Below, piece by piece: positions 843 through 25,329 of a stretch of 38,962 nucleotides of DNA. The notes below the pieces were generated by a model. The model was not told where the DNA came from, ran no database searches, and saw nothing but the letters and a program-made list of their open reading frames with translations. Both the position numbers and the translations under genes were made by a program. The first letter of the stretch is position 1. Each line of letters opens with the position of its first letter. Source of the stretch: Bacteroidota bacterium (GTDB lineage Bacteria; Bacteroidota; Bacteroidia; Bacteroidales; JABHKC01); contig JABHKC010000006.1 of assembly GCA_018692315.1 (NCBI GenBank), positions 1 through 38,962 of the forward strand. Direction: 5' to 3'.

Positions 843-861
843 AACATTCTCTATTAAAATG

Positions 862-869
862 CAAAAGTA
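862..869 (-). promoter_or_regulatory. Bacteroidota -7 promoter box for the HNH gene
   Basis: TACTTTTG on the minus strand fits TAnnTTTG exactly and ends 19 nt before the ATG at 842. It supports that start over the upstream in-frame one. No clear -33 TTTG was found. Confidence 0.5.
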
Positions 870-1051
870 AACAATTTTTTTCAATTGAATAGACACATAT
901 GTTAATAGTTTATTTACATTTTGGCAAACCGATTCAAACTCCTTATGATTTGTATAAACTTTATAGCAAAAATATTTGCATTTTTCATAATACTATACTT
1001 CTCTAAAAAAAGTAATTTCATTGGTTTAGATCAAAATCTTATCAGAAAAGT

Positions 1052-7362: not shown

Positions 7363-8115
7363 TTAATAAACACCAAAACGTTTTACATCAGCCAGTTGGT
7401 TTCCTTGAATAAGTCTAATTATAAAATATCCTGATTTTAGCTTCGACTTAGAGAACTTAATTTGTTTTTTACCTTCTGGCAAAAATTGCGAAAACTGTGT
7501 GATTTTATTTCCGAGCAGGTTGTAAATTTCAATGGAAATATCACTAGCTCTATCATTATAAAAATCAATTGAAACTTCATTATAAGAAGAAATACCTAAT
7601 ATTTCAGCTTTTCTAACAAATGCTATTTCATCTTCGGTAGCAATAGATTGGCAACCGCTAATAATTGCAGGAATATCTGTCAAGCTACATGGTTTCATAG
7701 TATGATCGGAGCAGACTACAAAATGCTGAGGTGTGTAGGTAATATTATATAAAGTCAAAACAGAATCAACAGCATTTGTAGCAAAACATGGATAAGTTCC
7801 TCCATAGGTAATCAAAAAACTGTCAATTTCGGAATTTGTTCCCCAAAGCGATTCAATGCCCCAAACCCATACATCTGTGCCGGTAGCACCTGAATTTTGC
7901 CAAATAGTTTCTAAAGACGGAACACCAACCTGACATGAGCTACAATTTACCGAAAAGAAATCTAAAACTATAGTTTTACCTGCATCCAGCTCATCATAAA
8001 GGTTATAGCTATTACCTTCGGTATCGGTAAAACTAAAATTTGGAGCAATTATTTGTGAGAAATTTGTGTTGGTAAAAAATATAAAAATAGAAAGAACAAG
8101 TATAACTTTTTTCAT
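7363..8115 (-). CDS. Secreted thioredoxin-like (TlpA/redoxin) protein with T9SS sorting domain
   Basis: A 250-residue secreted protein. Residues 1-20 are a signal peptide. Residues 24-165 resemble a TlpA/AhpC-TSA redoxin fold: FSFTDTEGNSYNLYDEL, then TIVLDFFSVNCSSCQ with a CSSC active site (C58, C61) followed by a helix starting VPSLE, and a cis-proline-like stretch YTPQHFVV. The usual WCxxC tryptophan is replaced by asparagine. Residues 172-250 are a type A T9SS sorting domain (IEIYNLLGNKI, LKSGYFIIRL), so it should be exported through the outer membrane and attached to the surface or released. A surface thiol role is plausible. It is the last gene of four consecutive minus-strand T9SS cargo genes but has its own promoter box, so it is probably transcribed separately. 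Confidence 0.85.
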   Translation of the reverse strand: MKKVILVLSIFIFFTNTNFSQIIAPNFSFTDTEGNSYNLYDELDAGKTIVLDFFSVNCSSCQVGVPSLETIWQNSGATGTDVWVWGIESLWGTNSEIDSFLITYGGTYPCFATNAVDSVLTLYNITYTPQHFVVCSDHTMKPCSLTDIPAIISGCQSIATEDEIAFVRKAEILGISSYNEVSIDFYNDRASDISIEIYNLLGNKITQFSQFLPEGKKQIKFSKSKLKSGYFIIRLIQGNQLADVKRFGVY

Positions 8116-8120
8116 AATAT

Positions 8121-8128
8121 CAAATTTA
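8121..8128 (-). promoter_or_regulatory. Bacteroidota -7 promoter box for the redoxin gene
   Basis: TAAATTTG on the minus strand fits TAnnTTTG and ends 5 nt before the ATG at 8115, which implies a leaderless or almost leaderless transcript. Confidence 0.45.
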
Positions 8129-8249
8129 AAAATAAAGCAATTTCCTTACAAAAAAAATGCCAAAAAAACATTTTTTGAATTTATATTCTTGATTGGGAAA
8201 TTGCAAATCCCTCTAAATCAGAAATTACAATTCAAAAGCTGAAGTATCA

Positions 8250-10931
8250 TTAATATTTTACAAATAGTTTTGTCATACTTCTCGTAGAGCTAACAATTCT
8301 AATAGCATAAACAGAATTCTGAATTTTCGTTAACTTAATTGATTGATCGCTATCAGAAATAATACCGTATTGTACGATTTTTCCATCTAAACTTGATATT
8401 TCATAAGTGAATTTTTCTGCTATTGGCGATAAAATATATAATTTGTCTTCACCGGAATCAAAAACTATTGAAAAAGTCTGTTGGCTATCCTGAACAGCCA
8501 AAATATCGTGTTCGCATGGCAGAGAATATGCTTTTCCTGGGGAGCCTCCCGGGCAACCAACAAACCAATTCTGCGGCAAATTGTTGCCGATATTAATATT
8601 ATCGAGCTCTAAAGTAGCCCCAAGATTGTTTAGGTTTGGCCAATTGTTTGTTTGTTCGTAATCGACTATGTCTATCAAAAATCCATCGGAATCGTATAAG
8701 TTAATACAATCGTTCGAGCCTAATTTCCAATTGAATGAACCTACAAAATTGTTTACGGAAGGATAGAATGACGAAAACTCTTCAGCATTACAGCAAATTA
8801 CAAGATAGTTTTGTGAGGCCAAAACTGTACCGATCGGAATGGTAAACGAATTTAATTTATTTTCATCTTTTATTGTCCAACCCGACATATCTATCGAAGT
8901 GCTACTTTTATTATATAACTCGAACCAATCGCCGGAAGCATAGTCTGGATTTGTGTTTTCAAAGTTTATTTCACTAATTACAATTTTGCTTAAATAAAAT
9001 GAATTGCAATAAACTCCGCTGCCATACAAATTATTATCAATCCAGATTGTCCGCTCAGAAATATAATTTTTCAGATAGTTAATTTCTTCATCATGAGTAT
9101 TTCCAACAAAATAGTTTGGCCAAACATAATTGCCCAGAATATTCCATTTCTCAAAATTTCTATCAATTGCCTCACCCAAATAGCCTGTTAGAGAATCAAT
9201 TTTTTCATAGATATTTGCCTCAGAAAGAATAGAATTTCTTAATTCATCCCATCTGCATCGGAGCAAATCCTGAAAATCGTTGTCCTCTTGTAGTCGTTTT
9301 AAGTGAAAAGGGATAACATCTATAACATATGGATTTTCTAAAGCCCAACCACTTGTCATCCAGCCACTGCCATAATCAGCATTTCCAAAACCCAAATTAA
9401 AATCCCAAACCGGTCCTGCAAATATTTTACCTCCTTTGGAGTCTCGCACTTTAGTGTAAAAATTGCTCAATCTGTAGGCATCAACATTAAAAGTTAGTTC
9501 CTGAATAATAAAATAATCGACGAAAGAATGAATGTCGATATAATTTCTATAACCATATTGTATATCGGTGAAATTGCTTCCTGCTAATGAGTATTCGAAA
9601 GATGAAACATATTGCTGAATATATACTGATTGCTCCGCTGTAATATCGTCTCTGTCGGGATATTCATATTGATACTGCAAATTCAGACTATTTCCATTAA
9701 ATGATGAAATTGGAGAAGGCCAGTCGTAAGTACCAGTTTCATCGGCCCAATCAACTTTGTAAATATAACCACCGGTCAAGGAATCTCCAGAGTTATCGTC
9801 ATTGTCAACTTTATCAATAGACAACCTTTTTTTATCCCGTTTAATTTTCTCCATCAAAACGTATATTCCTCTATATTCGGAATCGATAAAAAGCTCGCAA
9901 TAAACGCATCTAACAGCATACCAGCCCATTTCACGTGCAAGTTCATAAACCAGAACATTTCTAAGCAGTGATTTGTCAGTATATGGGGCATAAAGTATCC
10001 AGTCATTTTCTTCAGGCATTCCTAATAATGGTATATTAAGATTTTCGCCATTTTCTAATTGTGTTTCAAAAGCATACGATTTTTTATCGAACATTTGGGT
10101 ACTGCTTCCTCTGATTTCGATATTTATTTTGCATTCAGTATTTGCTTGATCTAAAGTTGAATTAAATAGTCCATCACTATTTTCAAAAGTTTTCATATCT
10201 GCAACAATTCTATAATCGTCGATAATTTGTTGATTGTTAGTATTAATCGAGATGATAGGTAAATGTGAACTAAATGCAAAATGATTTGAATCAAACCATT
10301 CAGGAAGTAGGCTTGCATTAGAATTTGTATCTGAAGTAGCGACGAATAAAAATGGAATTGCCGACAAATCGCTTGAACTTGTTCCGTAATTGTGTATCTG
10401 TATAGCAAGTACATTGTTTCCTGCAAGCATTATAGTATCCAAAGAGCTTGGCGGAATTGCAAAATATTCAGGTATTCCACCTTGATACATTTGGGCTTCA
10501 TGTATATTATTATCAGCATATGTGTTGTAGGATGGAATTTGTCCGAAAACTCCTATGTTTCCTCTTGCTATCTCTTTTCCGTTGAGGTAGGCAACAAAAG
10601 CATCATCATAATCTATATAAAAAAGAGCTCCCTCAATGAAAGAAGTATCAGATAAATTGAATGTCTTTCGTAAGTAAATTGAATTTACAGGCTGAATTTC
10701 AGTTGAATCGTCGCCATCGCCATATCCAAAACCTCCAGCACCTTCAAGCCAAAAACTATCATTGAACTGAATATCAGACCAATCTGTAGGTGGCTCCTGA
10801 GTTCCTAAAAAATATTTCCAATTGTCTGAAGCTTCAACTACCTTTTCCCAATGGTCAATTTGGCTAAATGAATTTTTTGCAAATATTGATACAAAAAAAA
10901 TTATTAGAATCGTGCTAAATATATTTTTCAT
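8250..10931 (-). CDS. Secreted CotH kinase family protein with lamin-tail and T9SS domains
   Basis: An 893-residue surface protein. Signal peptide 1-24; a galactose-binding-like beta domain at about 27-200 (IDYDDAFVAYLNGKEI); CotH domain about 223-640; lamin-tail domain (LTD) about 649-765 (ISEINFE...GDWFELYN, SGWTIKD); type A T9SS domain about 815-893. CotH proteins are atypical kinases related to Fam20C that phosphorylate secreted or spore-coat proteins. The expected features are visible: RGSSTQMFDKKSY (274-286), YRGIYVLMEKIKRDK (353-367) and the acidic metal-binding PVWDFNLGFGN (507-517). Substrates could be the neighbouring T9SS proteins, which is inference. CotH genes commonly sit near VTC and DUF4956 genes, as here (20396-21870). 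Family is certain; kinase activity is likely but unproven. Confidence 0.93.
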   Translation of the reverse strand: MKNIFSTILIIFFVSIFAKNSFSQIDHWEKVVEASDNWKYFLGTQEPPTDWSDIQFNDSFWLEGAGGFGYGDGDDSTEIQPVNSIYLRKTFNLSDTSFIEGALFYIDYDDAFVAYLNGKEIARGNIGVFGQIPSYNTYADNNIHEAQMYQGGIPEYFAIPPSSLDTIMLAGNNVLAIQIHNYGTSSSDLSAIPFLFVATSDTNSNASLLPEWFDSNHFAFSSHLPIISINTNNQQIIDDYRIVADMKTFENSDGLFNSTLDQANTECKINIEIRGSSTQMFDKKSYAFETQLENGENLNIPLLGMPEENDWILYAPYTDKSLLRNVLVYELAREMGWYAVRCVYCELFIDSEYRGIYVLMEKIKRDKKRLSIDKVDNDDNSGDSLTGGYIYKVDWADETGTYDWPSPISSFNGNSLNLQYQYEYPDRDDITAEQSVYIQQYVSSFEYSLAGSNFTDIQYGYRNYIDIHSFVDYFIIQELTFNVDAYRLSNFYTKVRDSKGGKIFAGPVWDFNLGFGNADYGSGWMTSGWALENPYVIDVIPFHLKRLQEDNDFQDLLRCRWDELRNSILSEANIYEKIDSLTGYLGEAIDRNFEKWNILGNYVWPNYFVGNTHDEEINYLKNYISERTIWIDNNLYGSGVYCNSFYLSKIVISEINFENTNPDYASGDWFELYNKSSTSIDMSGWTIKDENKLNSFTIPIGTVLASQNYLVICCNAEEFSSFYPSVNNFVGSFNWKLGSNDCINLYDSDGFLIDIVDYEQTNNWPNLNNLGATLELDNINIGNNLPQNWFVGCPGGSPGKAYSLPCEHDILAVQDSQQTFSIVFDSGEDKLYILSPIAEKFTYEISSLDGKIVQYGIISDSDQSIKLTKIQNSVYAIRIVSSTRSMTKLFVKY

Positions 10932-11007
10932 AAAGGTAAAGGTATGAATAATTTACAATAATTAAATCAGGAAATAAAAATCAAATATTAAAAGATTTTT
11001 TCAAAAA

Positions 11008-11040
11008 AAAAGAGAGCAAGAAAAAATCTTGCTCTCTTTT
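11008..11040 (-). terminator. Rho-independent terminator of the 1918-residue protein gene
   Basis: A 13-bp perfect stem pairs 11008-11020 with 11028-11040 around a 7-nt loop. Read on the minus strand it begins 18 nt after the stop codon and ends in a T-run. It separates the giant gene from the CotH gene. Confidence 0.85.
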
Positions 11041-11058
11041 CTATAAATAATTCAAAAA

Positions 11059-14000
11059 CTATTTTACAACTTGAAATTTATCACTCATTACTTCATTTCC
11101 TATTTTTACTTTGAAAAAATAAGAACCTGAAGTATAGTTGTCAAGATCAAGCTCAAAATTATAATTTCTACTTTCGAGTGTTGCATTTACAATCTGATCT
11201 ACTTGTACACCCAAAACATTGTAAATGTTAATTTGAACAAGTTGAGTTTCTTCAACATTCAGGTTAATATTAAATTTTGTTGAAGCAGGATTTGGATAAG
11301 ATTCTACAAATAATTGTTCCTGAATTGAAGATTTAGCTACTACACTTATTCCGTTGTCTGAATAGGAACTATTTCCGGTTTTCCAGTCTTTAATGTCAAT
11401 AACAAATTCTCTATTTAATTGCTTCGACCAATATTTTAAAACAATGTCATCGCCTAATTCAATACCTTCATTGTCCAAATTTGTTTTACCCCAAACTGTC
11501 AGGGCTAAATTTTTGTTATTGTACACAGCACTTCCAATCAATTGATCTTCTTTATCGAAAGCTCCAATTTGATCGCCTGAATTAATATTAAAATCCCAAC
11601 AATCATTTGGAAATCCGATAGTCATATTGCTACCAGTAACAATATTTTGCTTGTAATAATCAGGGCTTATAAAATCAGACTTTGCAAAATTTGAAGTTGC
11701 GTTTGCAGGATAAGTAAATACTACTGCATTTATCAATTTTATCTGATATCCTTCGCCCGGATTTAAGTTACCTATTCCGTTTATTCCATAAGTTGGCCAA
11801 TAAACTAAACCATTTGTATTTTTAACAATAGTTATATCATTTTCTATTGAACTAAACATTTGAGTAGCATCTGCCGAAGAAGTCCTTAGATATGCAATTA
11901 TACTCCAACCTTGATCAATTGAAAGTGGAGTTGCCTCTGGTTGTACTGGCAGCCCAACAAAATCAACAGATTGAGGGGTATTAAATTTAGCATAATAACC
12001 TTCTCCTATTGTTAAAGAACCTATCACATTGATGTTGAAAAGTGGCCAATAAATACTTCCAACAGAATTTTTCACTAGAACAAGCTCAGAAACTACTGGT
12101 GCGAAAACACTATCAAGTAATGGCTCGAATACATCAACATAGGTTGAAAAAATAGTCCAACCGGTGCTAAAATTAACTGATTGTGTAACTTGTGATACAT
12201 ATGATGAGTTGTTTGTGGCAAGCTCATCAGTAAATACCTCAAGAACTCCATTGATTACTGAAGTTATTGTTCCACTTTGTAAATAAGAAACTAAAACAAT
12301 TGAACTTGATTCGATAATATCAGTTACTGTAAGATCTATAATTGAGTCATTCAATGCATCTAATGCAGTTGATACAACAGCATTTGCGGCTCCATCTACC
12401 ATCACTACAAAATTTTCTGCATTCAGTGGATTTTGTTCCATTGCATCATCAAATTTCAATTTTAGAGTCATTCCATCAGTTGCAACTTCTGCTTCATCCA
12501 ATACTGGCGAGGTAGCAGGAAGTGTAAATGCTGGACCTTCAATATCATCGACAAAATAATTTCCTTCCATAACAACACCGGAATTCACCATAATAACTAA
12601 TTTGTCTAAATCTGTACGGTTGGCAGCAGAACTGAAATCTAAAACAGCAATTTCCCAGTTATTAGTATCTGAAACTGTATAGTTAGCAGTTACTTCTGTT
12701 GTCCAAGGTTCCGTAAGTTCATTGTTTTGAAGTTTAAATGAAAATGTAACTATTGATTCACTATAAACCTTCATTTGGAATGTATTACTTTCAGATAAAT
12801 CCAATTTGTCTCCTAAAATAGCAAAACTGTGAGTCCATTCGCTTGAAGTAGCTGATTTGTAAAAATCTCCAACTTTTTGGCTAATATTTCCAACTGTATT
12901 TGGATTCATAGCTTCCACGTCAAAATCACCGCCGGCTTGTCCGTCCCAGAAACCCCATACTAAACCACTGGCATCATCAAAATTTTCGTATGAAACAAGA
13001 GGTGCTTCTCCTAATTCTATATCATCTATATAAAATGTATTGTCAGCAAAAGAAGCAAAATCTAAAAAGAGAACCATTTTATCATATAATCCGGAACTTG
13101 CTCCAGTGAAATCGAAAACTAATTCTTGCCAACCATTTACGAAAGTAATATTTTGAGAATTCTCAACAAATCCTCCTGTTCCGCTTTGAGTTTCCAACTT
13201 CAATAAAGCAGTACAAGCAATAGGAGAATAAACTTTTACGTGAATATATTCATAAGTAGAAAAATCGACAGTAGTTTGCAAATTGCTGTAAACATGAGAA
13301 TATTGTTCAAAACCCCGTACCCATTGGGCTACAGAATCACTCGTATTTAGTCCTGTCATACTTGGATTTGCAACTTTCATTGGAAAGTTTGGCCAACCTT
13401 CAAAAACTTCATTTTCGTTCATATCAAAATCGTTGAAAATTGTATATGTAGGATTAACTACAGTAGTATCAACAAATTCAATATCATCCCAATAATATTC
13501 ATTTCCAGTACCATAATTACCAAAGTTGAAGAAAACTGCAATTTTATCATAAACATTGGATAAGTTCAAAGCAGGAGTTCCGTTTGCCAGATCGAAAACT
13601 ATAGTTTCCCATGCATTCTCAACTGTTGTATATTCAAGAGTTTCGCTAGAGATACCTCCATTGGTTTTATCTTCAACTTTCATCAAAATAGGAATTCCAA
13701 TTGCAGGAGAATATACTCTCATGCTCATTTGGGTTTGTGTTGCTGTGAATGGAATTGGATTTGCCAATCCACTTGAATTTCCAACAACAGCAGCACCCGA
13801 CCATGTTTCAGCTCCTGTAGCTTTTATAGTTTTTGCAACCATGTTAGTTGGGTCAACAGGATCGACTACTAATTCAGCAATATCTCCACCCCAGGTTTCA
13901 AATGTATAATCAACTGCTGCATCATCAAAAGTTATTGGTAAATCTACTGGTTCTGCGGTGAAAGGAACAAATTCTACATCATCCCAATAAAATACGTCCC

Positions 14001-16815
14001 CTGCTCCATAACTACCAAAATCGAAAAAGATACTAGCTTTATCATATGTCCATGATAAATCTAAAGCAGTTGTTCCAACTGCATTATTTGTAAAATCAAA
14101 TAAAATTGTTTCCCATCCATTTGCTACAGTTGTAAGGCTCTGAGTTTCACACGAATGAGTTGGGTCTAAATGATCTTCAACTTTTAATAAAATTGGAGTA
14201 CCAATAGCAGGAGAATAGACTTTTACACTCATTTTATTATCAATAGCAGTAAATGGAATAGCAGTAGCAAAACCATTTCCTCCAATTGTTGTTCCTGCCC
14301 AGGTTTCAGCACCGGCATTTTTTGTAGTTATTGCAACAATATTTGCACCACCAACAGGATCTGTTCCCAAAACGGTTGAAGTACTACCAAAATCAACGAG
14401 TAAATAATCAACTGTTGAGGATTCGAAATCAACAGGAAGGTCAACTTGTGCAAGTGATGCAGCTGCTAATTGAACATCATCGAAATAGAAAGTATCGGTG
14501 CCCCATGTAGCAAAATCGAAAAATAAGATTAACTTATCATAAACTCCGGATGTAGCTCCAGTGAAATTAAATGATAGTGTTTCCCAAGTGTTAACTCCAG
14601 AAATGTTCATTGAAACCTCTAGAGGTAATGCACCCAATGAACTTTCCAGCTTACATAATACGGTACAAGAAATTGGCGAATAAACTTTTGCTTCAATAGC
14701 TTGATAAGTCGAAAAATCGATTGGTGTAGAAAGGTCGGAATAAGCATGGGCCCATTGGTCTCCGCCTCGTGCCCAACAACCTACGCTATCGCTGGTGTTA
14801 ATTCCTGAAGGATATGGATTAGCAACTTTTACTGTTGGAATTGGCCAACCGGTAAATTCTTCATTTTCGTTAGCATCAAAATCAGTAAAAATCGTATAGC
14901 TTGGATTAACGACCACAGTATTGTCAAATTCTACATCATCCCAATAATAAATTTCACCAGCACCGGCTGTCCCAAAATTGAAAAAGATCACAGCTTTATC
15001 ATAAGTGTTAGTAATTGAGAATGAACCACCAGTAGTAGCACTATAATCAAATGTTAAAGTTTCCCAGGCATTGGCAACAGTAGTAGTATCTTGCGTTTCG
15101 GCAAAAATTCCAGGATTTGTTTCATCTTCAATCTTTAACATTACAGGAGTTCCTACTGATGGTGAAAAAACCTTTATTGTCATTTTTGCTTGAGTAGCAG
15201 TAAAAGGTATAGCATTAGCAAAACCTTCTTCAGGTGGGCCTGCTGTGGCAAGTGTGGTTCCTGCCCAGGTTTCTGCTCCAACTCCCTTTGTAGTTTGTAC
15301 AACTTGATTTGTTCCTCCTGCTGGATCTGTCATAAAAATTGAAGCTGTTCCTCCAAAATCGATTGTCGAATAATTTACAGTTGTATCATCAAAGTTAACT
15401 GGTAAGTCCATCTGAGATAATGGAATGGTAATATTTTCACAGTTTGCAGCAAAAGGAACAGTAATATCTGCTTGGCTTAATTGCCAATTTCCTCCAAACG
15501 TAAGTTTGCTCCATAATATATTCAGAACAACATCAGCGGGAGGTACACTCCAGGTTAAAGTCCTTCTTATTTTTCCTGCTACAGAAGTGTCTGGATCAGA
15601 AATTGTTGCCCCACTGCCACCTGATACTAATAGAAAATTCACCGGGTCGGCTGTTGCCGATTCAATTTCAACATACATTGAAGTAGCATCAACATTGGTG
15701 ATTGTTAGGTTGATTCCTGAGTTTACTTCAGCAGGTATATTAAAATGAGTTGTATAAGTTTCGCAATATGCAGAAGTACTGCTTGGGGTACCTGTTGTAT
15801 CTGGTGGTAGAAATTCTACATTGTCCCAATAATAAGTTTTGGATCCGGCTGTAGCTCCATCTGTTCCAAAGTTGAAAAAGATAGAAGCCTTGTCATAGGT
15901 ATTCACCAGATTTAGAGCTGGCGTTGCTGTAACTTGATTACTAAAATCAAACTCCAAAGTATCCCATGCGTTGGCAATTGTCGTAAGGGCTTCAGTTTCA
16001 ACATAAATTCCTCCATTAGCTGCATCTTCAACCTTCAAACGAACAGGAATACCAGCATCAGGTGAATAAACCAAAATTGACATTATAGTTGCATCGGCTG
16101 TAAATGGAATAGCATTGGCAAATCCAGCTGCGGTACTAATTGTTGTACCTGCCCAGGTTTCTGCTGTTACACCTTTTGTTGTAATTGCTACAACATTTGA
16201 AGAATTCAACGGATCGGCACCTAAAACTGTGGCATTATTTCCAAAATCTGTAACTGTATAATCTACAGTAACATCTTCGAAAGTTACAGGTAAATCAATT
16301 TGGTTCAATACAGTTCCAGTAGGAGCAATTAATTCAAGATCATCAAAATAAAATGTGTCTGTTCCAAAACTGGCAATATCAAAAAAGATTATTATCTTAT
16401 CATAGACACCTGACTGAGCAAAAGAAAAATCAAAGGAAAGCAATTCCCAAGTGTTTGGAGTAGAAATGTTTAGAGAAATCTCAACAGGTGGAGTTCCTGC
16501 TTGATCTTCAAGCTTCAACAAAACTGAGCTTGCAATTGGCGAATACACTTTCAACTCAAAAATATTGTTAGTAGAAAGGTCTAAATCGCTAGCCAAATCG
16601 GCATAACAATGTGCCCACTGTTCGCCACCTCGAGCCCATAGACCAATGCTATCACTAACATTTATACCTGACTGAAATGAATTAAAAACTTGTTGAGGCG
16701 CATTTGGCCAACCAGTAAAAGTAAGGTTCTGGTTACCTTCAAAATCTGTAAATACTTGAGCAAAACTTACCGTAATGCTAAGCATTCCAATTAATAGAAT
16801 AAAAATTTTCTTCAT
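11059..16815 (-). CDS. Giant modular T9SS-secreted surface protein with alternating jelly-roll-like modules
   Basis: A 1918-residue protein: signal peptide (1-19), a long repeat region, then a type A T9SS domain (1838-1918, SYPNPASTKFNI...). Two module types of about 140-165 residues alternate. Type A (22-163, 643-785, 1126-1268) begins FTDFExNxxxxFxGWP and contains WARGGEQWAH and YDKxxxFFDFA. Type B (174-337, 470-631, 793-950, 957-1115) begins DLPVxFxD and contains AETWAGTT and YYWDDVEF. A fourth, divergent A-like module is at 1276-1427. The FYFDDxEL/YYWDDVEF endings resemble carbohydrate-binding jelly-roll modules. An unrelated insert (345-460) separates the first two B modules. An Ig-like domain (about 1434-1530) and two GWxIFSTY/GWSIIAYL repeats (1548-1702) precede the sorting domain. 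No catalytic domain is seen; adhesion or glycan binding is the best guess. Confidence 0.88.
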   Translation of the reverse strand: MKKIFILLIGMLSITVSFAQVFTDFEGNQNLTFTGWPNAPQQVFNSFQSGINVSDSIGLWARGGEQWAHCYADLASDLDLSTNNIFELKVYSPIASSVLLKLEDQAGTPPVEISLNISTPNTWELLSFDFSFAQSGVYDKIIIFFDIASFGTDTFYFDDLELIAPTGTVLNQIDLPVTFEDVTVDYTVTDFGNNATVLGADPLNSSNVVAITTKGVTAETWAGTTISTAAGFANAIPFTADATIMSILVYSPDAGIPVRLKVEDAANGGIYVETEALTTIANAWDTLEFDFSNQVTATPALNLVNTYDKASIFFNFGTDGATAGSKTYYWDNVEFLPPDTTGTPSSTSAYCETYTTHFNIPAEVNSGINLTITNVDATSMYVEIESATADPVNFLLVSGGSGATISDPDTSVAGKIRRTLTWSVPPADVVLNILWSKLTFGGNWQLSQADITVPFAANCENITIPLSQMDLPVNFDDTTVNYSTIDFGGTASIFMTDPAGGTNQVVQTTKGVGAETWAGTTLATAGPPEEGFANAIPFTATQAKMTIKVFSPSVGTPVMLKIEDETNPGIFAETQDTTTVANAWETLTFDYSATTGGSFSITNTYDKAVIFFNFGTAGAGEIYYWDDVEFDNTVVVNPSYTIFTDFDANENEEFTGWPIPTVKVANPYPSGINTSDSVGCWARGGDQWAHAYSDLSTPIDFSTYQAIEAKVYSPISCTVLCKLESSLGALPLEVSMNISGVNTWETLSFNFTGATSGVYDKLILFFDFATWGTDTFYFDDVQLAAASLAQVDLPVDFESSTVDYLLVDFGSTSTVLGTDPVGGANIVAITTKNAGAETWAGTTIGGNGFATAIPFTAIDNKMSVKVYSPAIGTPILLKVEDHLDPTHSCETQSLTTVANGWETILFDFTNNAVGTTALDLSWTYDKASIFFDFGSYGAGDVFYWDDVEFVPFTAEPVDLPITFDDAAVDYTFETWGGDIAELVVDPVDPTNMVAKTIKATGAETWSGAAVVGNSSGLANPIPFTATQTQMSMRVYSPAIGIPILMKVEDKTNGGISSETLEYTTVENAWETIVFDLANGTPALNLSNVYDKIAVFFNFGNYGTGNEYYWDDIEFVDTTVVNPTYTIFNDFDMNENEVFEGWPNFPMKVANPSMTGLNTSDSVAQWVRGFEQYSHVYSNLQTTVDFSTYEYIHVKVYSPIACTALLKLETQSGTGGFVENSQNITFVNGWQELVFDFTGASSGLYDKMVLFLDFASFADNTFYIDDIELGEAPLVSYENFDDASGLVWGFWDGQAGGDFDVEAMNPNTVGNISQKVGDFYKSATSSEWTHSFAILGDKLDLSESNTFQMKVYSESIVTFSFKLQNNELTEPWTTEVTANYTVSDTNNWEIAVLDFSSAANRTDLDKLVIMVNSGVVMEGNYFVDDIEGPAFTLPATSPVLDEAEVATDGMTLKLKFDDAMEQNPLNAENFVVMVDGAANAVVSTALDALNDSIIDLTVTDIIESSSIVLVSYLQSGTITSVINGVLEVFTDELATNNSSYVSQVTQSVNFSTGWTIFSTYVDVFEPLLDSVFAPVVSELVLVKNSVGSIYWPLFNINVIGSLTIGEGYYAKFNTPQSVDFVGLPVQPEATPLSIDQGWSIIAYLRTSSADATQMFSSIENDITIVKNTNGLVYWPTYGINGIGNLNPGEGYQIKLINAVVFTYPANATSNFAKSDFISPDYYKQNIVTGSNMTIGFPNDCWDFNINSGDQIGAFDKEDQLIGSAVYNNKNLALTVWGKTNLDNEGIELGDDIVLKYWSKQLNREFVIDIKDWKTGNSSYSDNGISVVAKSSIQEQLFVESYPNPASTKFNINLNVEETQLVQINIYNVLGVQVDQIVNATLESRNYNFELDLDNYTSGSYFFKVKIGNEVMSDKFQVVK
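12535..16752 (-). repeat. Coding repeat array of A and B modules
   Basis: Eight units of roughly 430-490 bp in the order A-B-(insert)-B-A-B-B-A-A'. Units are clearly homologous in protein but diverged in DNA, so the array is old compared with the TPR repeats at 5874. Confidence 0.85.
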
Positions 16816-17243
16816 TTTAATTAATTTTAGTTTGACAAAAAATATTTTAACTTTCAGATCACAAAAATAATGAAGACTGAGTGAATAATCATTATTTTAT
16901 ACTACATCAAAAACTAAATTAAATTACATCAAAAATTCATCAATAGTAATCTATAATAGTCAAATACAGCACTTTAAGCATTTCAAACACTTCGTCAAAA
17001 AACGAACAAATCCGAAATTTGCATTTTTGTGTGTGAGTAACTGCAAATACAAAAAATTGATTTATTAAGCTCAGAGCTGAAATATTATTATGCAAAACTT
17101 TCTTATCAAGCTTGCATTTTCAGGAAGTAAAATTCGAAATTGGCAAGCAAAGAAATATGTGCTAATTAGTGGTTACACAATTATATGCTATATTGAGTGA
17201 AATAGCTTTGAATATGAACCAATTTGAAAATTATATGGTTGAT
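16816..17243. other. Intergenic region, 428 bp, no gene seen
   Basis: AT-rich spacer upstream of the giant gene. It holds the promoter box at 16862-16869. I found no open frame with coding character, no strong hairpin and no RNA gene in the rest; a decayed sequence cannot be excluded. Confidence 0.6.
16862..16869 (-). promoter_or_regulatory. Bacteroidota -7 promoter box for the 1918-residue protein gene
   Basis: TATTTTTG on the minus strand fits TAnnTTTG and lies 46 nt upstream of the ATG, giving a 5' UTR of about 40 nt, longer than for the other genes here. Confidence 0.45.
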
Positions 17244-17993
17244 CTATTTAATTATAAATTTTCCAATTGCCCGATTTTCACTACCCAATTCTTCAATTAT
17301 GTATAGACCAGCTTGAAATTTTGAAATATCAATGTAAGTTGATTCTTCCATTGTTTCATTGGAATATTTACATTCTCCAAATATATTGTAAATCCGGATG
17401 TGTTTTTTAGATTGCAAACCAGAGATTTTAATAAAATCTGTTGCAGGATTTGGAAAAACATTTATAGTTTGAGAAGTATTGTTAAATATAGAACCAGGAT
17501 TATTTGTAGCTGCGGGAGTTGGATCAGGAAAAAATGTCCAAATATCTTCTCCGTCATTTTGTCGTCCATATGAAATATTGCTTAATTGAACATCGTATGT
17601 GATAGAATCAATAATATTTGTATCTGTATCGAATAAGACAACCTGTTCACCGTTTCCACTAAGCTTAAAATTCAAATGAAAAACTCCTTGATTTGTATCA
17701 TTGTCTGCCCAAAACAGGAAAAATTCGCCTGGGCTAATTATTGTGGAGTCATTCCCTGTAGGAATTTGATATGCAAATGATTTTGCTGTAGTATCGGCAA
17801 GAAAAAACCCAGCAAGATTAATGGTTTCAGTTCCACTATTGTAAATCTCTATCCAATCGTTAAATTCCCCATAACTATCAGCGTTCACACTATCGTTAAT
17901 ACTTAGGAACTCATTAATTTTAATTTTATTAATCTGCGCATAGCTAATATTGAATAATAAAATGGCTACAATAATTGTAATACTTTTTCTCAT
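17244..17993 (-). CDS. Secreted lamin-tail domain protein with T9SS sorting domain
   Basis: A 249-residue secreted protein: signal peptide (1-19), one lamin-tail domain (about 20-140: IKINEFLSIND, FNDWIEIYNSGTETINLAGFFLAD, FFLFWAD) and a type A T9SS domain (178-249, INVFPNPATDF). Extracellular LTDs are immunoglobulin-like folds, often paired with CotH kinases or nucleases in surface proteins. The CotH protein 6 kb away carries the same domain, which supports a functional link. No catalytic region. It is divergently transcribed from the histidine kinase operon, 104 bp away; only an imperfect -7 box (TAATTTCG) is seen upstream. It could serve as scaffold or as CotH substrate; this is speculative. 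Confidence 0.85.
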   Translation of the reverse strand: MRKSITIIVAILLFNISYAQINKIKINEFLSINDSVNADSYGEFNDWIEIYNSGTETINLAGFFLADTTAKSFAYQIPTGNDSTIISPGEFFLFWADNDTNQGVFHLNFKLSGNGEQVVLFDTDTNIIDSITYDVQLSNISYGRQNDGEDIWTFFPDPTPAATNNPGSIFNNTSQTINVFPNPATDFIKISGLQSKKHIRIYNIFGECKYSNETMEESTYIDISKFQAGLYIIEELGSENRAIGKFIIK

Positions 17994-18097
17994 AATCTAT
18001 CATTTATAAATATTATGCGAAATTATCATTTTTTTTAATAAGTATTGAAAGTATTGAATATTTATTCTATTTTTACGACTGAATAACTTATATTTTT

Positions 18098-19303
18098 ATG
18101 GACAAATTGCACTCAGAATTATTTGAGAAAATTGAGAGGTTGGAACAAAAAATTTCTTTATTGGAGAAAAAAAATTCAGAAAGTAATTATAAGCTTCAAT
18201 CTTCATTTCTTGAAAATATGTCGCACGAAATTCGTACTCCGATGAATACTGTGATAGGATTTTCGAGCCTTTTGGCAGCACCCGAGATATCTGATAATAA
18301 AAGAAAAGAATACTCAAGTATGATATATCAAAGTAGTGTAAGGCTACTTAAATTTTTAGACGATTTGATTGATTTGGAAAAAATTGAATCGAATAATATA
18401 TCAATAATTGAAGGAGCATGTCAGGTAAATCTAATTATCAACGAACTTTTTCATACTTTTAATGAAGTAAGAAAAAAAATGGGGCTCAAATATGTTAGCC
18501 TCAGAATAAACAATGAATGCATAAATGATGATATAATAATTCAGTCTGACAAATATAGGATCAGACAAGTTTTAGGTTTTTTGATTGAGAATGCACTGAG
18601 ATATACAGATATTGGAAATATTGAAATTGGTTTCAGATATAAAAAAGAAGAATTAGAATTCTATGTACAAGATTCAGGAATAGGAATTTCAAAAACACAT
18701 ATCAACGAAATTTTCAAAAAATACTATCAGGTAAACAAATCGGATAAAAAAAGATATCGTGGTATTGGAATCGGCTTGTACATTTCTTATGAACTTGCAA
18801 AATTATTGGGAGGAAGTATTAGTGTTAGCTCCACTTTAGGAAAAGGTTCAACATTTTATTTAAAGTTACCTCTATTAAAATTAGAAGAAATACCCAAAGA
18901 GATTCCAAGATTTGAGATTGATATTGAAGATTTGAATTGGGAAAACAAAACTATACTGATTGCCGAAGACGAAAAAATGAATTATCGTTTATTAAAAGAA
19001 ATTTTGACCCCCACGAAAGCAAAAATCATATCGGTTCAGAACGGAGAACATGCAGTAGAAATATGCAAATCGAACAGAAAAATTGATATCGTACTCATGG
19101 ATATTCAGATGCCAATATTGAACGGATACGATGCCACAAGACAGATAAAGCACTTCAATAAAAAAATTCCGATTATTGCTCAGACTGCATATGCTCATGC
19201 CGGCGAAAAAGCAAAAAGTATTTCGGCAGGCTGCGACGATTATATCTCAAAACCTATTGACCCAAAGACCCTACTATATAAAATAAATAAGTATTTTAAC
19301 TAA
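18098..19303 (+). CDS. Sensor-less hybrid histidine kinase
   Basis: A 401-residue cytoplasmic hybrid kinase. Residues 1-33 are a short coiled coil instead of a sensor domain. HisKA follows, with phosphoacceptor H43 in NMSHEIRTPMN. The HATPase domain has the N-box IENALRYT (N165), DSGIGIS (192-198) and RGIGIGLYI. A receiver domain (284-401) has the acidic pocket AED (289-291), phosphoacceptor D335 in LMDIQMP, T363 and K385. It should autophosphorylate and pass phosphate to its own receiver. No DNA-binding output is attached, so it must signal through protein contact or a separate phosphotransfer partner. It is first in an operon with the HlyD-like, VTC and DUF4956 genes (24-bp gap to the next), which suggests it senses or regulates that machinery. 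Confidence 0.93.
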   Translation: MDKLHSELFEKIERLEQKISLLEKKNSESNYKLQSSFLENMSHEIRTPMNTVIGFSSLLAAPEISDNKRKEYSSMIYQSSVRLLKFLDDLIDLEKIESNNISIIEGACQVNLIINELFHTFNEVRKKMGLKYVSLRINNECINDDIIIQSDKYRIRQVLGFLIENALRYTDIGNIEIGFRYKKEELEFYVQDSGIGISKTHINEIFKKYYQVNKSDKKRYRGIGIGLYISYELAKLLGGSISVSSTLGKGSTFYLKLPLLKLEEIPKEIPRFEIDIEDLNWENKTILIAEDEKMNYRLLKEILTPTKAKIISVQNGEHAVEICKSNRKIDIVLMDIQMPILNGYDATRQIKHFNKKIPIIAQTAYAHAGEKAKSISAGCDDYISKPIDPKTLLYKINKYFN

Positions 19304-19327
19304 AGTGAAGAAAAAGCATTTTTCCTT

Positions 19328-20395
19328 ATGAATCCAAAAATTGTCAGACGAATTATACTAGCATCACTAATCATAATTCTATTAGTTATATTATTTTCTC
19401 CATTCAAGATACCATATTCTTTTGATGTTACAGGAAGAATTTATCATGCCAAAGAATGGAAACTAATTAAAGAAACAAACGGAAGTTTCTATAGCATTAT
19501 GGTTGATAACTATAGTGGTATGAAAAGCCATTTTACAAATTATGAATTTGAACGAGGCGATATAGCTAACATCAGAATAAATGGAAAATTAGAAAAAAGT
19601 GTTTACATTCATAAAAATGATTCTATTGCTCATATCACAACTCTATTAATTGACGAACAGATTTTAAATTTAGAAAATCAATTATTAATTGAAGAAGCAC
19701 TTTTAAAAACAAATACAAGCGGATTAAGAATTGAAGATATTGAAATTGCTGAAGAAGAACTCAAGTTTACTAAACAACAACTCGAACAACAAGAATTGAG
19801 GTTTGCAAGATTTGAAAAATTGTATGAAGATTCTGTTTACACAGATAAAATTTACGAAGAAGAATTGAATTTACTTAAATTGGCAAAAATTCAAGTTTCG
19901 ATTGCCGAAAAAAAACTACTTGCCTCTGAATCCGGAAATAAGCCAGAAGAAATTCAGCTTATTAAAACGAGAATAAAGTCTTTGGAAAAAGAAATTGCAA
20001 ATCTTAAACAAAGGAAGTTGAATTATACGATACTTTCGCCTATGAGCGGGAAAATTAGTTTGAATAATCTCCCAGAAGAAATTTTAACAATTTGTGAACC
20101 AAACAAATATATTTTGATAGCCCCTGTTCAGGTTAATAATAGACAATACCTTACAGATTCGAGCCAAATTAAATTTTTAGCTCCAAACTCAGAAGGTCAG
20201 ATTTCTTTATCAATTTCTCAAGTGAACGACTATGTTGGATTAATCAACAATCAACAAACCATTCTTACAAAAACCATAATAAAATCTGACCAAGACAGTT
20301 ATAGCTCCGGAATGGTAGTAAAATGCCAAATTGTTTGTGCACCGGTAACAATTTTCGAATATTTCAAAAGAGCCACAAAAATTACAATTAGATAG
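19328..20395 (+). CDS. HlyD-like membrane fusion (periplasmic adaptor) protein
   Basis: A 355-residue protein with an N-terminal transmembrane segment (about 8-26), a first beta region (30-100), a long helical coiled-coil hairpin (about 108-238, with QQLEQQELRFARFEKLYEDSVYTDKIYEEE typical of adaptor hairpins) and a return beta domain beginning YTILSPMSGKISL. This is the plan of HlyD/EmrA adaptors, which connect an inner-membrane transporter to the outer membrane. The barrel-sandwich motif is atypical: the usual glycine-rich first half is hard to recognise. No ABC, MFS or RND transporter or TolC-like gene is nearby. Its stop codon abuts the ATG of the VTC gene with no gap, so its partner may be the VTC/DUF4956 pair. 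Family call good; role inferred. Confidence 0.8.
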   Translation: MNPKIVRRIILASLIIILLVILFSPFKIPYSFDVTGRIYHAKEWKLIKETNGSFYSIMVDNYSGMKSHFTNYEFERGDIANIRINGKLEKSVYIHKNDSIAHITTLLIDEQILNLENQLLIEEALLKTNTSGLRIEDIEIAEEELKFTKQQLEQQELRFARFEKLYEDSVYTDKIYEEELNLLKLAKIQVSIAEKKLLASESGNKPEEIQLIKTRIKSLEKEIANLKQRKLNYTILSPMSGKISLNNLPEEILTICEPNKYILIAPVQVNNRQYLTDSSQIKFLAPNSEGQISLSISQVNDYVGLINNQQTILTKTIIKSDQDSYSSGMVVKCQIVCAPVTIFEYFKRATKITIR

Positions 20396-21181
20396 ATGAG
20401 AAGTGAGTATAAATATATAGTTCACAAAAGCAAGATGGAAAAATTGCGTGAAATGATTCTACCATTTGTCGATATCGACAAATTTGCAAAAGGCAGACCG
20501 GGAAATCATTACACTGTGAAAAGTATATATTTTGATTCACCATACTTTCAATTTTATACCGAAAAAGTTCATCACGAAAAGCATCGCAAAAAAGTTCGTT
20601 TAAGAGGATACAATTCAGAAAATGCATCAAATACAGTATTTTTGGAAATTAAAAGGAAATATGAAGCTCCTATTTTCAAAAACAGATGCCCTTTGAAATA
20701 TGAAGATTCAAAACAAATATTTAAAGGCAAATCAATTGAAAGTTTTGTTGAAAATAACTTAAAATTCCCAAACGCAGTTGACGATGCAAAACGATTTTTT
20801 TATCAAATATATTCAAGAAAACTTTTGCCAGTAGTAAATGTTATATATGAAAGAGAGCCATTTCTGGGGAAACTTGACAGAAATATAAGAATTACTTTCG
20901 ATAAAAATCTTCGGAGCTCGCCATATCCAACAATTGACGATTTGTATAACGAAAAAAGAATTCGTTACGCCTTGAAAGATTATTTTATTTTAGAAGTGAA
21001 ATTTAACGACTATTATCCGTCGTGGATGAAACCCATTGTTGGGGTGTTACATTTAAGTAAAGTCCCAGCATCGAAATATACAATTTGCATAGATTCGCAC
21101 AATATGCTTAACAAAGTTTTAAAACCAGCTGCTTTTACTTATGTGCGACTTTTTAATAATAAAAAAACAGAACTAGTATAG
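20396..21181 (+). CDS. VTC domain protein, probable polyphosphate polymerase
   Basis: A 261-residue VTC-domain protein of the triphosphate tunnel metalloenzyme fold, related to the catalytic domain of yeast Vtc4, which makes polyphosphate from ATP. Tunnel strands with alternating charged residues are visible: YKYIV (5-9), KVRLRGY (66-72), FLEIKRK (82-88), VIYERE (149-154), IRITFDK (164-170) and ILEVKF (198-203). SIYFDSP (43-49) is the characteristic family motif. There is no membrane segment, so a membrane partner is needed; the DUF4956 gene two bases downstream is the obvious candidate. Start ATG immediately follows the stop of the HlyD-like gene, so translational coupling is likely. Family is certain; polymerase activity is inferred from homology. 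Confidence 0.9.
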   Translation: MRSEYKYIVHKSKMEKLREMILPFVDIDKFAKGRPGNHYTVKSIYFDSPYFQFYTEKVHHEKHRKKVRLRGYNSENASNTVFLEIKRKYEAPIFKNRCPLKYEDSKQIFKGKSIESFVENNLKFPNAVDDAKRFFYQIYSRKLLPVVNVIYEREPFLGKLDRNIRITFDKNLRSSPYPTIDDLYNEKRIRYALKDYFILEVKFNDYYPSWMKPIVGVLHLSKVPASKYTICIDSHNMLNKVLKPAAFTYVRLFNNKKTELV

Positions 21182-21183
21182 AT

Positions 21184-21870
21184 ATGTTTATAGATTTTCA
21201 AAGTTTAGACCTATTTCCAACATCAGCCTCTGATGTTATTTTCAATCTGATAATTTCTTTAATTTGTGGTTTACTTATTTCAGTTACTTACAGAATAACC
21301 TATCGCGGGCCTAATTACTCAACAACCTTTGTAAATTCATTGGTACTGCTTACGATGATTACTTCGATAGTTTTACTCGTGATTGGAAACAATTTGGCAA
21401 GAGCATTTGGGCTTGTTGGTGCAATGTCAATTATTAGATTCCGTACTGCTGTTCGCGACACTATGGATATAATTTTCATATTTTTCGCGCTTTCAATTGG
21501 AATGGCTTCAGGTGTTGGGCTCACAATGATTGCTATTGTTGGAACTCTAATAATAAGCATTGTAATTTTAGGCTTAGTCAGCTTTAATTGGGGAAATACT
21601 CGCCGTAGAGACTACCTTTTACAAATTTCATATAATGCTAATATGGATAGCGAAATTGTTATGTCCACAATACTTAGCAAGTTTTGTAAAAAAGTAAAAC
21701 TCGTAAACCTGAAAAATATCGGATACGGTGAAGAACTTGAAGCATTTTACCATGTGATGCTCAAAGACAATTCGAAAGGAGACAATTTATTGAAAGAATT
21801 GAACGATTTAGATGATATATATAATATAAATCTATATTTCGATGAAGATGATGCTAATGCTCCAACATAG
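21184..21870 (+). CDS. DUF4956 integral membrane protein
   Basis: A 228-residue protein with about four transmembrane helices in its first 137 residues (about 18-38, 48-68, 72-85, 95-137) and a soluble C-terminal domain (about 145-228) rich in charged residues. The conserved loop GAMSIIRFRTAVRDTMDI (about 79-96) is the signature of DUF4956. Genes of this family are frequently found directly next to VTC-domain genes, as here (2-bp gap). A working idea is that it anchors the polymerase or conducts the growing polymer, comparable to the transmembrane part of the yeast VTC complex; this is inference. Last gene of the tight operon 18098-21870. Confidence 0.88.
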   Translation: MFIDFQSLDLFPTSASDVIFNLIISLICGLLISVTYRITYRGPNYSTTFVNSLVLLTMITSIVLLVIGNNLARAFGLVGAMSIIRFRTAVRDTMDIIFIFFALSIGMASGVGLTMIAIVGTLIISIVILGLVSFNWGNTRRRDYLLQISYNANMDSEIVMSTILSKFCKKVKLVNLKNIGYGEELEAFYHVMLKDNSKGDNLLKELNDLDDIYNINLYFDEDDANAPT

Positions 21871-21985
21871 TGAATGAATTATTTGAATTTTGTTTTGAGT
21901 TTTAAATAATCGCTAAATAGTATGACCGAAGAATTTTAGCTTCGAACTTATAAAATGTTGTCCCTTTATCATAACATGCATAACA

Positions 21986-22708
21986 ATGAAATTATCAATT
22001 TTATATATTTTTATTTTTCTTGCTTTTCTATCATGTAATAAAAATGATGAATTGCAAACACTTTCACCAATAAATTCAATTTCAATTGAAGTTCCTGAAC
22101 CTTCAGGCATGTGCTTCAACAATTTTCTGGATTGTTTCTATATTGTAGGAGATTCAACCAAATCTGTTTACAGGCTTAACCTCTTAGGGCAATTGATTGC
22201 TGAGTATCAAGATGTTGGTAATGATTTAGAAGGTATAAGCTTTAATCCTGACAATTCCTCTTTTCTCATTGCTGAAGAAAAAAATAGGGCAATTATCGAA
22301 ATCGACATATTAGGAAATGTCCTTTCTACAAACAATGTAAGTGGAATGAATCTCGATAATAAAGGTTTAGAAGGGATTACTTATAATACCAACAATCAAC
22401 ACATATATTTACTTAACGAAGAAGATCCAGGTCAATTAATTGAACTTGATACAAATTTTGTAACTCTAAACACTTATGATTTAGATTTTGCAGCCGATTA
22501 TTCAGGAATTTGTTATAACAATATCGAAGATAATTTTTGGGTTGTATCGGAAGAATCAAAATTAATAGTGAAATGCGATTTGTTTGGAAATTCAATTCAA
22601 AAGTATAAGATTAATGAGGAAAAAACCGAAGGGATTGTTTTCGTAAACAATACAATTTATCTCGTTAGCGACTCCGAATCGAAAATCTATATTTACTCTT
22701 TAGAATAA
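21986..22708 (+). CDS. SdiA-regulated-like beta-propeller lipoprotein
   Basis: A 240-residue lipoprotein: hydrophobic N-terminus ending in the lipobox FLSC with the acylated cysteine at C17, so it is anchored in a membrane, probably the outer. The rest is repeats of about 40-45 residues with patterns such as EPSGMCFN...FYIVGD, LEGISFNPDNSSFLIAEE, LEGITYNTNNQHIYLLNEE and YSGICYNNIEDNFWVVSEE. These match the SdiA-regulated family (YjiK-like, PF06977), a beta-propeller. It starts 115 bp after the DUF4956 gene in the same direction; co-transcription is possible but no promoter box was recognised. Proteins of this family are seen near CotH and phytase-like genes, from memory. No catalytic residues can be named. 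Confidence 0.82.
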   Translation: MKLSILYIFIFLAFLSCNKNDELQTLSPINSISIEVPEPSGMCFNNFLDCFYIVGDSTKSVYRLNLLGQLIAEYQDVGNDLEGISFNPDNSSFLIAEEKNRAIIEIDILGNVLSTNNVSGMNLDNKGLEGITYNTNNQHIYLLNEEDPGQLIELDTNFVTLNTYDLDFAADYSGICYNNIEDNFWVVSEESKLIVKCDLFGNSIQKYKINEEKTEGIVFVNNTIYLVSDSESKIYIYSLE

Positions 22709-22724
22709 ATTTCAAATGTAGAAA

Positions 22725-23336
22725 CTATTCGATTTTTCCTTTGTAAGCCCCTGAAAAATAAACACTAAATCGTATTCCGGCAACTTGATAATATTGATTT
22801 GCACTGACAAAAAAATTAGCACTCAATCCAAGATCGTAATAAAATTTATAAGTAAGACAATAGTTTACATAAAGTCCCGGCTCAACAAAATATCTGTAGA
22901 ACGGCACAAGTTCAATAGTTACAGAATCAATAGTTGTAGTTTCATTATGATGAAAACTGCCGCCCCAGGAATAAGAGGTCCCAAGAAATAAAGATTGCTG
23001 AGTTTTCTGTTTCTCCCACCTCCAGCCATATCCCAGATACAAATCGTTCAGTCTCTGACTAGATATATACAGAAAGGATTCTTCCCGAGATGTATGATAG
23101 CCAATATTAAAGTGGTGATTTTTTATACGCTGATGATAAGACACATTTATATCTCTTTCAATCTTTACTCTATCGAAATTATAAGACAAACCGGCTCCAA
23201 TCGATAACCAATTGCTTCCGGGTTTATAAATTTTATTTTCAATAATAATTTCTTCGTATTTTTCCTGTCCACTTGTTTTAGATGAGGACAAAAAGGAAAT
23301 TATTATAAATATAAAAATTAATTTAGATTTCATCAT
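22725..23336 (-). CDS. Secreted protein, probable small outer-membrane beta-barrel
   Basis: A 203-residue protein with a signal peptide (1-24, hydrophobic core LIFIFIIISFL). The mature part consists of amphipathic strands with frequent aromatic ends: WLSIGAGLSYNF, HHFNIGYHTS, LYLGYGWRWE, SLFLGTSYSWGGS, GLYVNYCLTYKFYYDLGLSANFFV and a final strand IRFSVYFSGAYKG. This is the look of an 8- to 10-strand outer-membrane barrel. I do not recognise the family. It begins 3 nt after the stop of the nuclease-like gene and has no promoter box of its own, so it may be the third gene of the ATPase-nuclease unit, although a cell-surface protein there is unexpected. It ends convergently with the lipoprotein gene, 16 bp apart. 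Confidence 0.75.
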   Translation of the reverse strand: MMKSKLIFIFIIISFLSSSKTSGQEKYEEIIIENKIYKPGSNWLSIGAGLSYNFDRVKIERDINVSYHQRIKNHHFNIGYHTSREESFLYISSQRLNDLYLGYGWRWEKQKTQQSLFLGTSYSWGGSFHHNETTTIDSVTIELVPFYRYFVEPGLYVNYCLTYKFYYDLGLSANFFVSANQYYQVAGIRFSVYFSGAYKGKIE

Positions 23337-23339
23337 TTC

Positions 23340-23846
23340 TTAGTAACAAGGTTTAATAGCAGGAACAGGCATCTTGGCTTCGATAAAAAATTTCTTATTG
23401 CGATACTTAAACTGTTTGTTTTGAAGAATCCGCAATTTCAAACCGGCATCTCGTTTATAAATTTCAATTTTACTAACAAAATAGAGTTTTATTCTTTTGT
23501 AATCAATTTCTAAAACATCCTTAAATCTTTTACAAATAAAATCATCGATGCATGTTGAGAATTTCTCTAACATATTTTCAACAACAAAACCTTTTGATGA
23601 TTTAATCCCCTTTAATTCAACAATATAAATTGCAAAACCAAATCTGCATTTTTGAACTATCAAACAATCTGGTGAAGCTGGCACCTTTGAAAGCTTAAGA
23701 TTATTATAAAAATCATCAACTTTTATAACCAAAACATCTTTCTGAGAAATTCGATTATCAAAATCAATACAAATACCTTCATCCTCGCATTTGCTATGAA
23801 TAAATTTTGACAATTCAGAATGTTTCTTTATTGTTTCTAAAAGCAT
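23340..23846 (-). CDS. Small protein with PD-(D/E)XK nuclease-like signature
   Basis: A 168-residue protein of no family I can name. SPDCLIVQKC (58-67) followed by YIVELKGI (74-81) gives D60...E77-x-K79, the classic two-strand core of PD-(D/E)XK nucleases. Flanking segments fit an alpha-beta fold: a strand LVIKV before, helices at 88-110, and a strand RIKLYFVSKI after. The C-terminus is basic and ends in PAIKPCY. It starts 2 nt after the ATPase stop, so the pair must be co-translated. By analogy with Septu, PARIS and other AAA15-nuclease defence pairs, the ATPase would sense a foreign signal and release the nuclease. The nuclease call rests on one motif and is not certain; a non-catalytic partner is possible. 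Confidence 0.7.
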   Translation of the reverse strand: MLLETIKKHSELSKFIHSKCEDEGICIDFDNRISQKDVLVIKVDDFYNNLKLSKVPASPDCLIVQKCRFGFAIYIVELKGIKSSKGFVVENMLEKFSTCIDDFICKRFKDVLEIDYKRIKLYFVSKIEIYKRDAGLKLRILQNKQFKYRNKKFFIEAKMPVPAIKPCY

Positions 23847-23848
23847 AT

Positions 23849-25306: not shown

Positions 25307-25329
25307 TTTATACAATAATTAATTTATGC

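Follow-up and report, generated by a model that had tools for sequence, protein, structure and literature searches.

The window analyzed here is a stretch of 38,962 nucleotides from a Bacteroidota bacterium (contig JABHKC010000006.1), and the locus under study lies at positions 8,250 to 22,708. Its core is a triplet of genes encoding an HlyD-like adaptor, a VTC-domain polymerase, and a DUF4956 membrane protein. The genes of the locus, with strand and profile matches (E-values), are as follows:

8250-10931, minus strand: CotH kinase and lamin tail domain (LTD) protein, divergent (Pfam PF08757, 1.9e-58; PF00932, 6e-19)
11059-16815, minus strand: protein of 1918 amino acids (aa) with a type IX secretion system (T9SS) tail, between the CotH and LTD genes (PF18962, 5.3e-13)
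17244-17993, minus strand: small protein with LTD and T9SS sorting tail (PF00932, 3.3e-18; PF18962, 3.2e-12)
18098-19303, plus strand: hybrid histidine kinase, opening the plus-strand run (HisKA, HATPase, and REC domains)
19328-20395, plus strand: HlyD-type periplasmic adaptor with N-terminal transmembrane (TM) helix, alpha-hairpin, and RLT tip (NCBIfam HlyD PRK03598, 3.5e-7)
20396-21181, plus strand: VTC-domain polymerase (PF09359, 1.1e-44)
21184-21870, plus strand: DUF4956, an MgtC/SapB-like membrane protein with a C-terminal ACT-like domain (PF16316, 1.8e-14)
21986-22708, plus strand: SdiA-regulated or phytase-like protein with a lipoprotein signal by eye (PF06977, 1.6e-21)

Each gene family that an earlier note on this DNA had named was borne out by Pfam or NCBIfam matches. 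The note had also described the kinase, HlyD-like, VTC, and DUF4956 genes as a gap-free operon, in agreement with the intergenic gaps of 24, 0, and 2 bases; the SdiA-regulated gene begins 115 bases after DUF4956. The CotH protein had been called a T9SS protein with CotH and LTD domains. Both domains were recovered, but Pfam and NCBIfam gave no match to a T9SS tail at E≤0.001. The C-terminus of this protein weakly resembled a solved lipase chain (E 0.006), and its kinase domain had no sequence match in the PDB at E≤0.01. The note's gene list, while correct in its named calls, had omitted the 1918-aa protein between the two LTD-bearing genes, which may be linked to the system. Scanning the locus for promoters and terminators yielded nothing informative.

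Conservation of the triplet

We scanned for related loci with five adaptor-linked DUF4956 proteins as seeds; of 325 hits, the best 80 were retained. Ten of these were left out, eight with less than 2.2 kb upstream and two (L027 and L050) in which the open reading frame picker missed DUF4956; the remaining 70 had a called DUF4956 with at least 2.2 kb upstream of it. Adaptor, VTC, and DUF4956 lay on one strand in 68 of the 70, in the order HlyD-VTC-DUF4956. Because the seeds were adaptor-linked, this count describes this DUF4956 subfamily only. A six-frame search recovered the triplet in L050. L027 (5-9920) has a VTC-DUF4956 pair and, some 8.7 kb upstream of it at the edge of the locus, an adaptor match, as if there had been an insertion between them. 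The record titles from the scan include Bacteroidales, Saprospiraceae, Chlorobiota, Ignavibacteriota, Calditrichia, Zixibacteriota, Neomarinimicrobiota, and Latescibacterota.

Closer to the window, the HlyD-like protein was searched against its own genome and 59 others from the same order, 60 in all. Beyond the window it identified 4 full-length homologues (E≤1.6e-31) and seven weak, partial matches. All 4 full-length homologues were encoded directly upstream of VTC-DUF4956. Loss of the triplet gene order was looked for in these 4 close relatives and was seen in none.

The flanks of the triplet differed from locus to locus. We collected 136 immediate neighbors from 76 loci, leaving out genes that were missing or longer than 1300 aa. 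Twenty CotH proteins were set aside (the 21st, L095:6061-7569, stayed in), and the 116 others matched 106 Pfam families, the commonest of which, NTP_transferase of the sugar-nucleotide type, occurred in 13. Among the 25 of the 106 families listed was ABC_tran, matched by 3 of the 116, one ABC-F-like and two of oligopeptide type. Conserved synteny on a wider scale was considered and rejected; a nucleotidyltransferase-type gene and a gene of about 950 aa follow the triplet in 14 loci and not elsewhere. Since the triplet is kept together while its flanks change, it behaves as a unit. HlyD-VTC-DUF4956 is a real, conserved gene unit.

We also surveyed a sample of 395 genomes from the phylum, that of the window included. 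VTC was found in 57, CotH in 135, and a strong match to the adaptor (>140 bits) in 23, again including the window's own genome; VTC was present in 22 of these 23. We counted 65 VTC places, leaving out a 54-residue fragment (G081:C160). An HlyD-type adaptor stood beside VTC or DUF4956 at 43 of the 65, in three gene orders. In the first (29 places), the adaptor is directly upstream of VTC. DUF4956 was present in all 27 of these places that were inspected, with G312:C9 and G078:C11 outside that count, and the weakest adaptors among the 29 (G242, G247, G194, and G096) scored 76-114 bits. In the second (13 places), VTC-DUF4956 is followed by a different HlyD-type adaptor. The third, CotH-DUF4956-adaptor-OEP-VTC-LTD, was found at one place (G121:C24). 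Adaptors of the second and third orders were identified by Pfam HlyD for three members and for the rest by profiles from five and one members. The association of the HlyD-like gene with VTC and DUF4956 noted in the window is thus kept in relatives, both in the seeded subfamily and across VTC places.

A DUF2490 protein adjoined the VTC-DUF4956 pair, or lay one gene off, at 15 of the 65 places (four called by Pfam, and eleven by a profile from those four). Weak side hits suggest that this protein may be an outer-membrane barrel. Altogether, an adaptor or a DUF2490 protein accompanied VTC at 58 of the 65 places. At two places a long CotH-domain protein lay between DUF4956 and VTC. The long CotH-domain proteins in this position in L174 (8056-10683) and L175 (8596-11298, minus strand) appeared by eye to be membrane-anchored.

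Triplet proteins and their partners

The VTC profile match covers positions 2-233 of the 235 in PF09359, that is, the whole domain. Nine residues that we take to be those of the Vtc4 tunnel (K200, R264, R266, K281, K294, R361, R373, E426, and K458) were identical in 44 of 44 aligned triplet VTC sequences, drawn from 81 found by profile. Substitutions of R264, R266, and E426 in yeast VTC impaired catalysis (PMC9911596). Judged by these residues the active site is intact, and polyphosphate synthesis is predicted. The window's own genome (99.6% complete) has two VTC genes and no recognized PPK1, PPK2, or PelF domain (PF11997 at E≤0.001 for the last). With no PPK1 or PPK2 domain, the two VTC genes are the only candidates for a polyphosphate polymerase found in this genome. 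The second belongs to a divergent VTC-DUF4956 pair (L019, 10047-11461, minus strand).

DUF4956 is MgtC-like by profile comparison. Aligned by hhalign to eight MgtC proteins, it gave a probability of 97.8% (E 1.2e-12) over 199 columns, and PF02308 was matched at E≤0.01 by 41 of 72 DUF4956 sequences, the window protein not among them. N69, R85, R87, and D95 were invariant in all 72. Of the five helices in the predicted model (pLDDT 78, pTM 0.62), four are clearly hydrophobic and one, at 69-89, is weakly hydrophobic. The ACT-like domain that accompanies them has several PDB matches, among them the C-terminal domain of MgtC (E 4e-3). PMC12345266 had already described MgtC and ACT domains in the Streptococcus intermedius homologue.

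The HlyD-like protein had no Pfam match, and its NCBIfam PRK03598 score was under the curated cut-off. Its AlphaFold2 model (pLDDT 91) has the TM anchor, alpha-hairpin, and strand-rich domains of an adaptor, and the closest solved structure was MacA (Foldseek 2.7e-13, TM-score 0.44-0.57). The hairpin tip reads R-x3-L-x6-T (R161, L165, and T172). In Escherichia coli HlyD the RLT motif was shown to bind TolC (PMC3391258). Of 68 adaptor sequences compared at the tip columns, 57 had R and 65 had L or M, with S or T in 34, A in 23, and P in 11. Both the predicted fold and the tip motif are in keeping with a conduit leading to TolC.

The earlier note regarded the adaptor as one without a transporter. 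This was partly right. In the window, no ABC, RND, or MFS gene was found among the ten proteins scanned (7363-23336). In other genomes, TolC-family (OEP) genes lie inside the cluster, beside DUF4956 or the adaptor, in three cases: G027 (CotH-HlyD-VTC-DUF4956-OEP, then a weak SdiA match), G225, and G121. The window's own genome has 18 OEP matches elsewhere, none adjacent in the window, so a candidate TolC-family partner is available. DUF4956 is likely the inner-membrane partner of the adaptor.

CotH was found in 55 of the 57 genomes with VTC and in 80 of the 338 others (Fisher 2.8e-27, without correction for phylogeny), with at most five CotH candidates scored per genome. Where the adaptor match was strong (23 genomes), CotH was always present. 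Of the 33 named loci with room, 10 had CotH within 5 kb of the triplet. Among the 136 immediate neighbors, 21 were CotH proteins; they came from 19 of the 76 loci, and 20 of them were encoded on the strand of the triplet. CotH was also near in 14 of 29 whole-genome loci with room, a count biased upward because several of those stretches were fetched for nearby CotH coordinates. The tie between CotH and the VTC system drawn in the earlier note is borne out by these counts. The dependence runs one way, with CotH common in genomes that lack VTC; this fits a VTC product that depends on CotH and argues against CotH strictly needing the product. The CotH and LTD protein is presumed to be the surface partner of the triplet.

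The hybrid kinase fared differently. It had been put forward as the controller of the system, and a profile derived from it matched within 5 kb in 1 of the 33 named loci with room; we therefore rejected it as a conserved part, and control by it is not supported. Kinases matching it do lie near the triplet in L026, L030, and L135, and in L138 a PAS/HAMP kinase directly follows DUF4956. SdiA-regulated proteins are near the triplet in L018 (after OEP, weak), L020, L021 (opposite strand, upstream), L132, and L136, and in none of the 33 named loci with room. The SdiA-regulated protein is a recurrent partner and not a core one.

Elsewhere in the window are several other genes of note. An AAA/OLD-like ATPase (23340-25315, minus strand; PADLOC PD-T4-4_A 2e-27, AriA 8.5e-22) has a 168-aa neighbor with no Pfam or PADLOC match, and the two form a possible defence pair. 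A 736-aa NTPase with TPR repeats (4182-6392, plus strand) is STAND-like by eye, with a weak PADLOC match to the TPR. A NUMOD4 and HNH protein (282-896, minus strand) resembles homing endonucleases, and a 1605-aa protein (32640-37457, minus strand) has, by eye, Cys-containing repeats of roughly 85 aa.

Possible function and rival explanations

We propose that the triplet is a synthase-exporter of polyphosphate that supplies a CotH/LTD system at the cell surface, a proposal whose chances we consider about even. VTC would polymerize phosphate in the cytosol, most likely making polyphosphate from ATP. DUF4956 would be the inner-membrane part that takes up the chain and hands it on, and the adaptor would bridge the periplasm to a TolC-family outer-membrane channel, encoded here elsewhere in the genome. 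At the surface, the CotH kinase and LTD proteins would bind, use, or modify the polymer. A more speculative idea, which we think improbable, is that secreted CotH kinases, working outside the cell with little ATP at hand, take exported polyphosphate as their phosphate donor or as a substrate, so that extracellular phosphorylation would be driven by an exported polymer. If the triplet is indeed a synthase-exporter, bacteria would have a dedicated route for making polyphosphate and exporting it across two membranes. DUF4956 would gain a role, in a tripartite exporter whose inner-membrane part is MgtC-like, and the activity of secreted CotH kinases beyond spore formation would become easier to approach.

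Several observations weigh against a synthase-exporter. Five of the 65 VTC places had neither adaptor, DUF2490, nor an interposed CotH protein in the stretch read; among these five is the second VTC-DUF4956 pair of the window's own genome, with no recognized adaptor or barrel in 19.9 kb. DUF4956 stood alone, without an adjacent VTC, in L051 and L055, and may have another role. Of the 13 second-order places, 3 (L163, L167, and L186) have an ordinary RND pump, complete with its own adaptor, close by. The tip motif is not strict, as R-x3-[LM]-x6-[ST] fit 32 of 68 adaptors, the window's included. No solved fold for the membrane part of DUF4956 was among the PDB matches listed, which the C-terminal domain fills. 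TolC was tried as a constant member and rejected, with a single-seed OEP profile matching in 1 of 85 loci and a two-seed profile adding only one distant OEP, in L033. In S. intermedius, the polymerase-homologue mutant still aggregated and still made Pel (PMC12345266). Finally, G225 has an HlyD-DUF4956-OEP cluster (L129, 5935-9206, minus strand) and no VTC match anywhere in its genome, so DUF4956 may have another role or export something else. In the light of this cluster, DUF4956 and the adaptor may form the transport half of the system, with VTC as a separable synthetic half.

G225 is also what speaks for small-molecule or ion efflux, in which DUF4956 would be a transporter and VTC would merely supply or use a phosphorylated substrate. 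The invariance of the checked residues in every aligned triplet VTC and the presence of VTC in all but one of the strong-adaptor genomes argue against this, and we consider it quite unlikely. A regulatory module without export is somewhat unlikely in our judgment. Here the ACT-like domain of DUF4956 would sense a metabolite and control VTC or phosphate uptake, and the adaptor would anchor or couple the complex to the envelope. The homology of DUF4956 to MgtC and its ACT-like domain would suit such a module, and Salmonella MgtC acts on ATP synthase and PhoR (stated in PMC12345266); however, the adaptor retains a full hairpin and a TolC-docking tip, and there are other architectures in which an outer-membrane protein stands in for the adaptor or accompanies it.

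VTC and CotH could instead tune an exopolysaccharide made elsewhere, as proposed for Gram-positive Pel, where the cassette adjoins pel genes (PMC7112168) and mutants alter Pel (PMC12345266). The commonest flanking family, NTP_transferase, would fit as well, its 13 occurrences among 116 neighbors falling in one recurrent gene order. The genome, however, has no PelF-type domain (PF11997), and no glycosyltransferase or polysaccharide synthase is among the 25 of 106 flanking families listed; we hold this explanation to be unlikely. That the genes are mere neighbors, by chance or inherited synteny, is very hard to credit. The wider neighborhood, including the kinase and the 1918-aa protein, does vary, but the triplet holds while its flanks differ, its order is intact in all 4 close relatives, and adaptor, VTC, and DUF4956 occur together in three gene orders.

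Comparison with known systems

The proposed synthase-exporter shares its VTC tunnel residues with the yeast VTC complex (Vtc1/3/4), in which synthesis is coupled to membrane passage (PMC9911596). In contrast to yeast, the VTC domain here is a separate protein with no recognized SPX or membrane part, its membrane partner is MgtC-like, and there are two membranes to cross. With the HlyD, MacA, and EmrA adaptors of type I secretion and tripartite pumps, the HlyD-like protein shares fold, hairpin, and RLT/RLS tip; the membrane protein at hand, however, is the MgtC-like DUF4956 instead of the product of an ABC, RND, or MFS gene. DUF4956 resembles MgtC/SapB in the profile match and the ACT-like C-terminus, yet it is its own Pfam family and has an adaptor and a polymerase as partners.

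Another known system is the Gram-positive Pel cassette. In streptococci, clostridia, and bifidobacteria, genes for CotH, a polyphosphate polymerase, and DUF4956 lie next to pel genes (PMC7112168), and these three families are shared with the loci described here (PMC7112168, PMC12345266). In S. intermedius, deletion of the MgtC-like or the CotH gene changed Pel level and aggregation (PMC12345266), and an island with VTC and CotH occurs in Clostridium perfringens (PMC2879425). The authors of PMC12345266 state that they did not find the three-gene arrangement outside the Pel locus. PMC8250860 and PMC10657179 have no bearing on the triplet, and among the matches listed from open-licence PMC papers we found no account of HlyD-VTC-DUF4956. 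The loci described here differ from the Pel cassette in their periplasmic adaptor, in the LTD and T9SS-tail genes close by, and in the lack of a PelF domain in the genome. The triplet loci are an apparently undescribed envelope version, outside Pel and with an adaptor in addition, of a partly known cassette.

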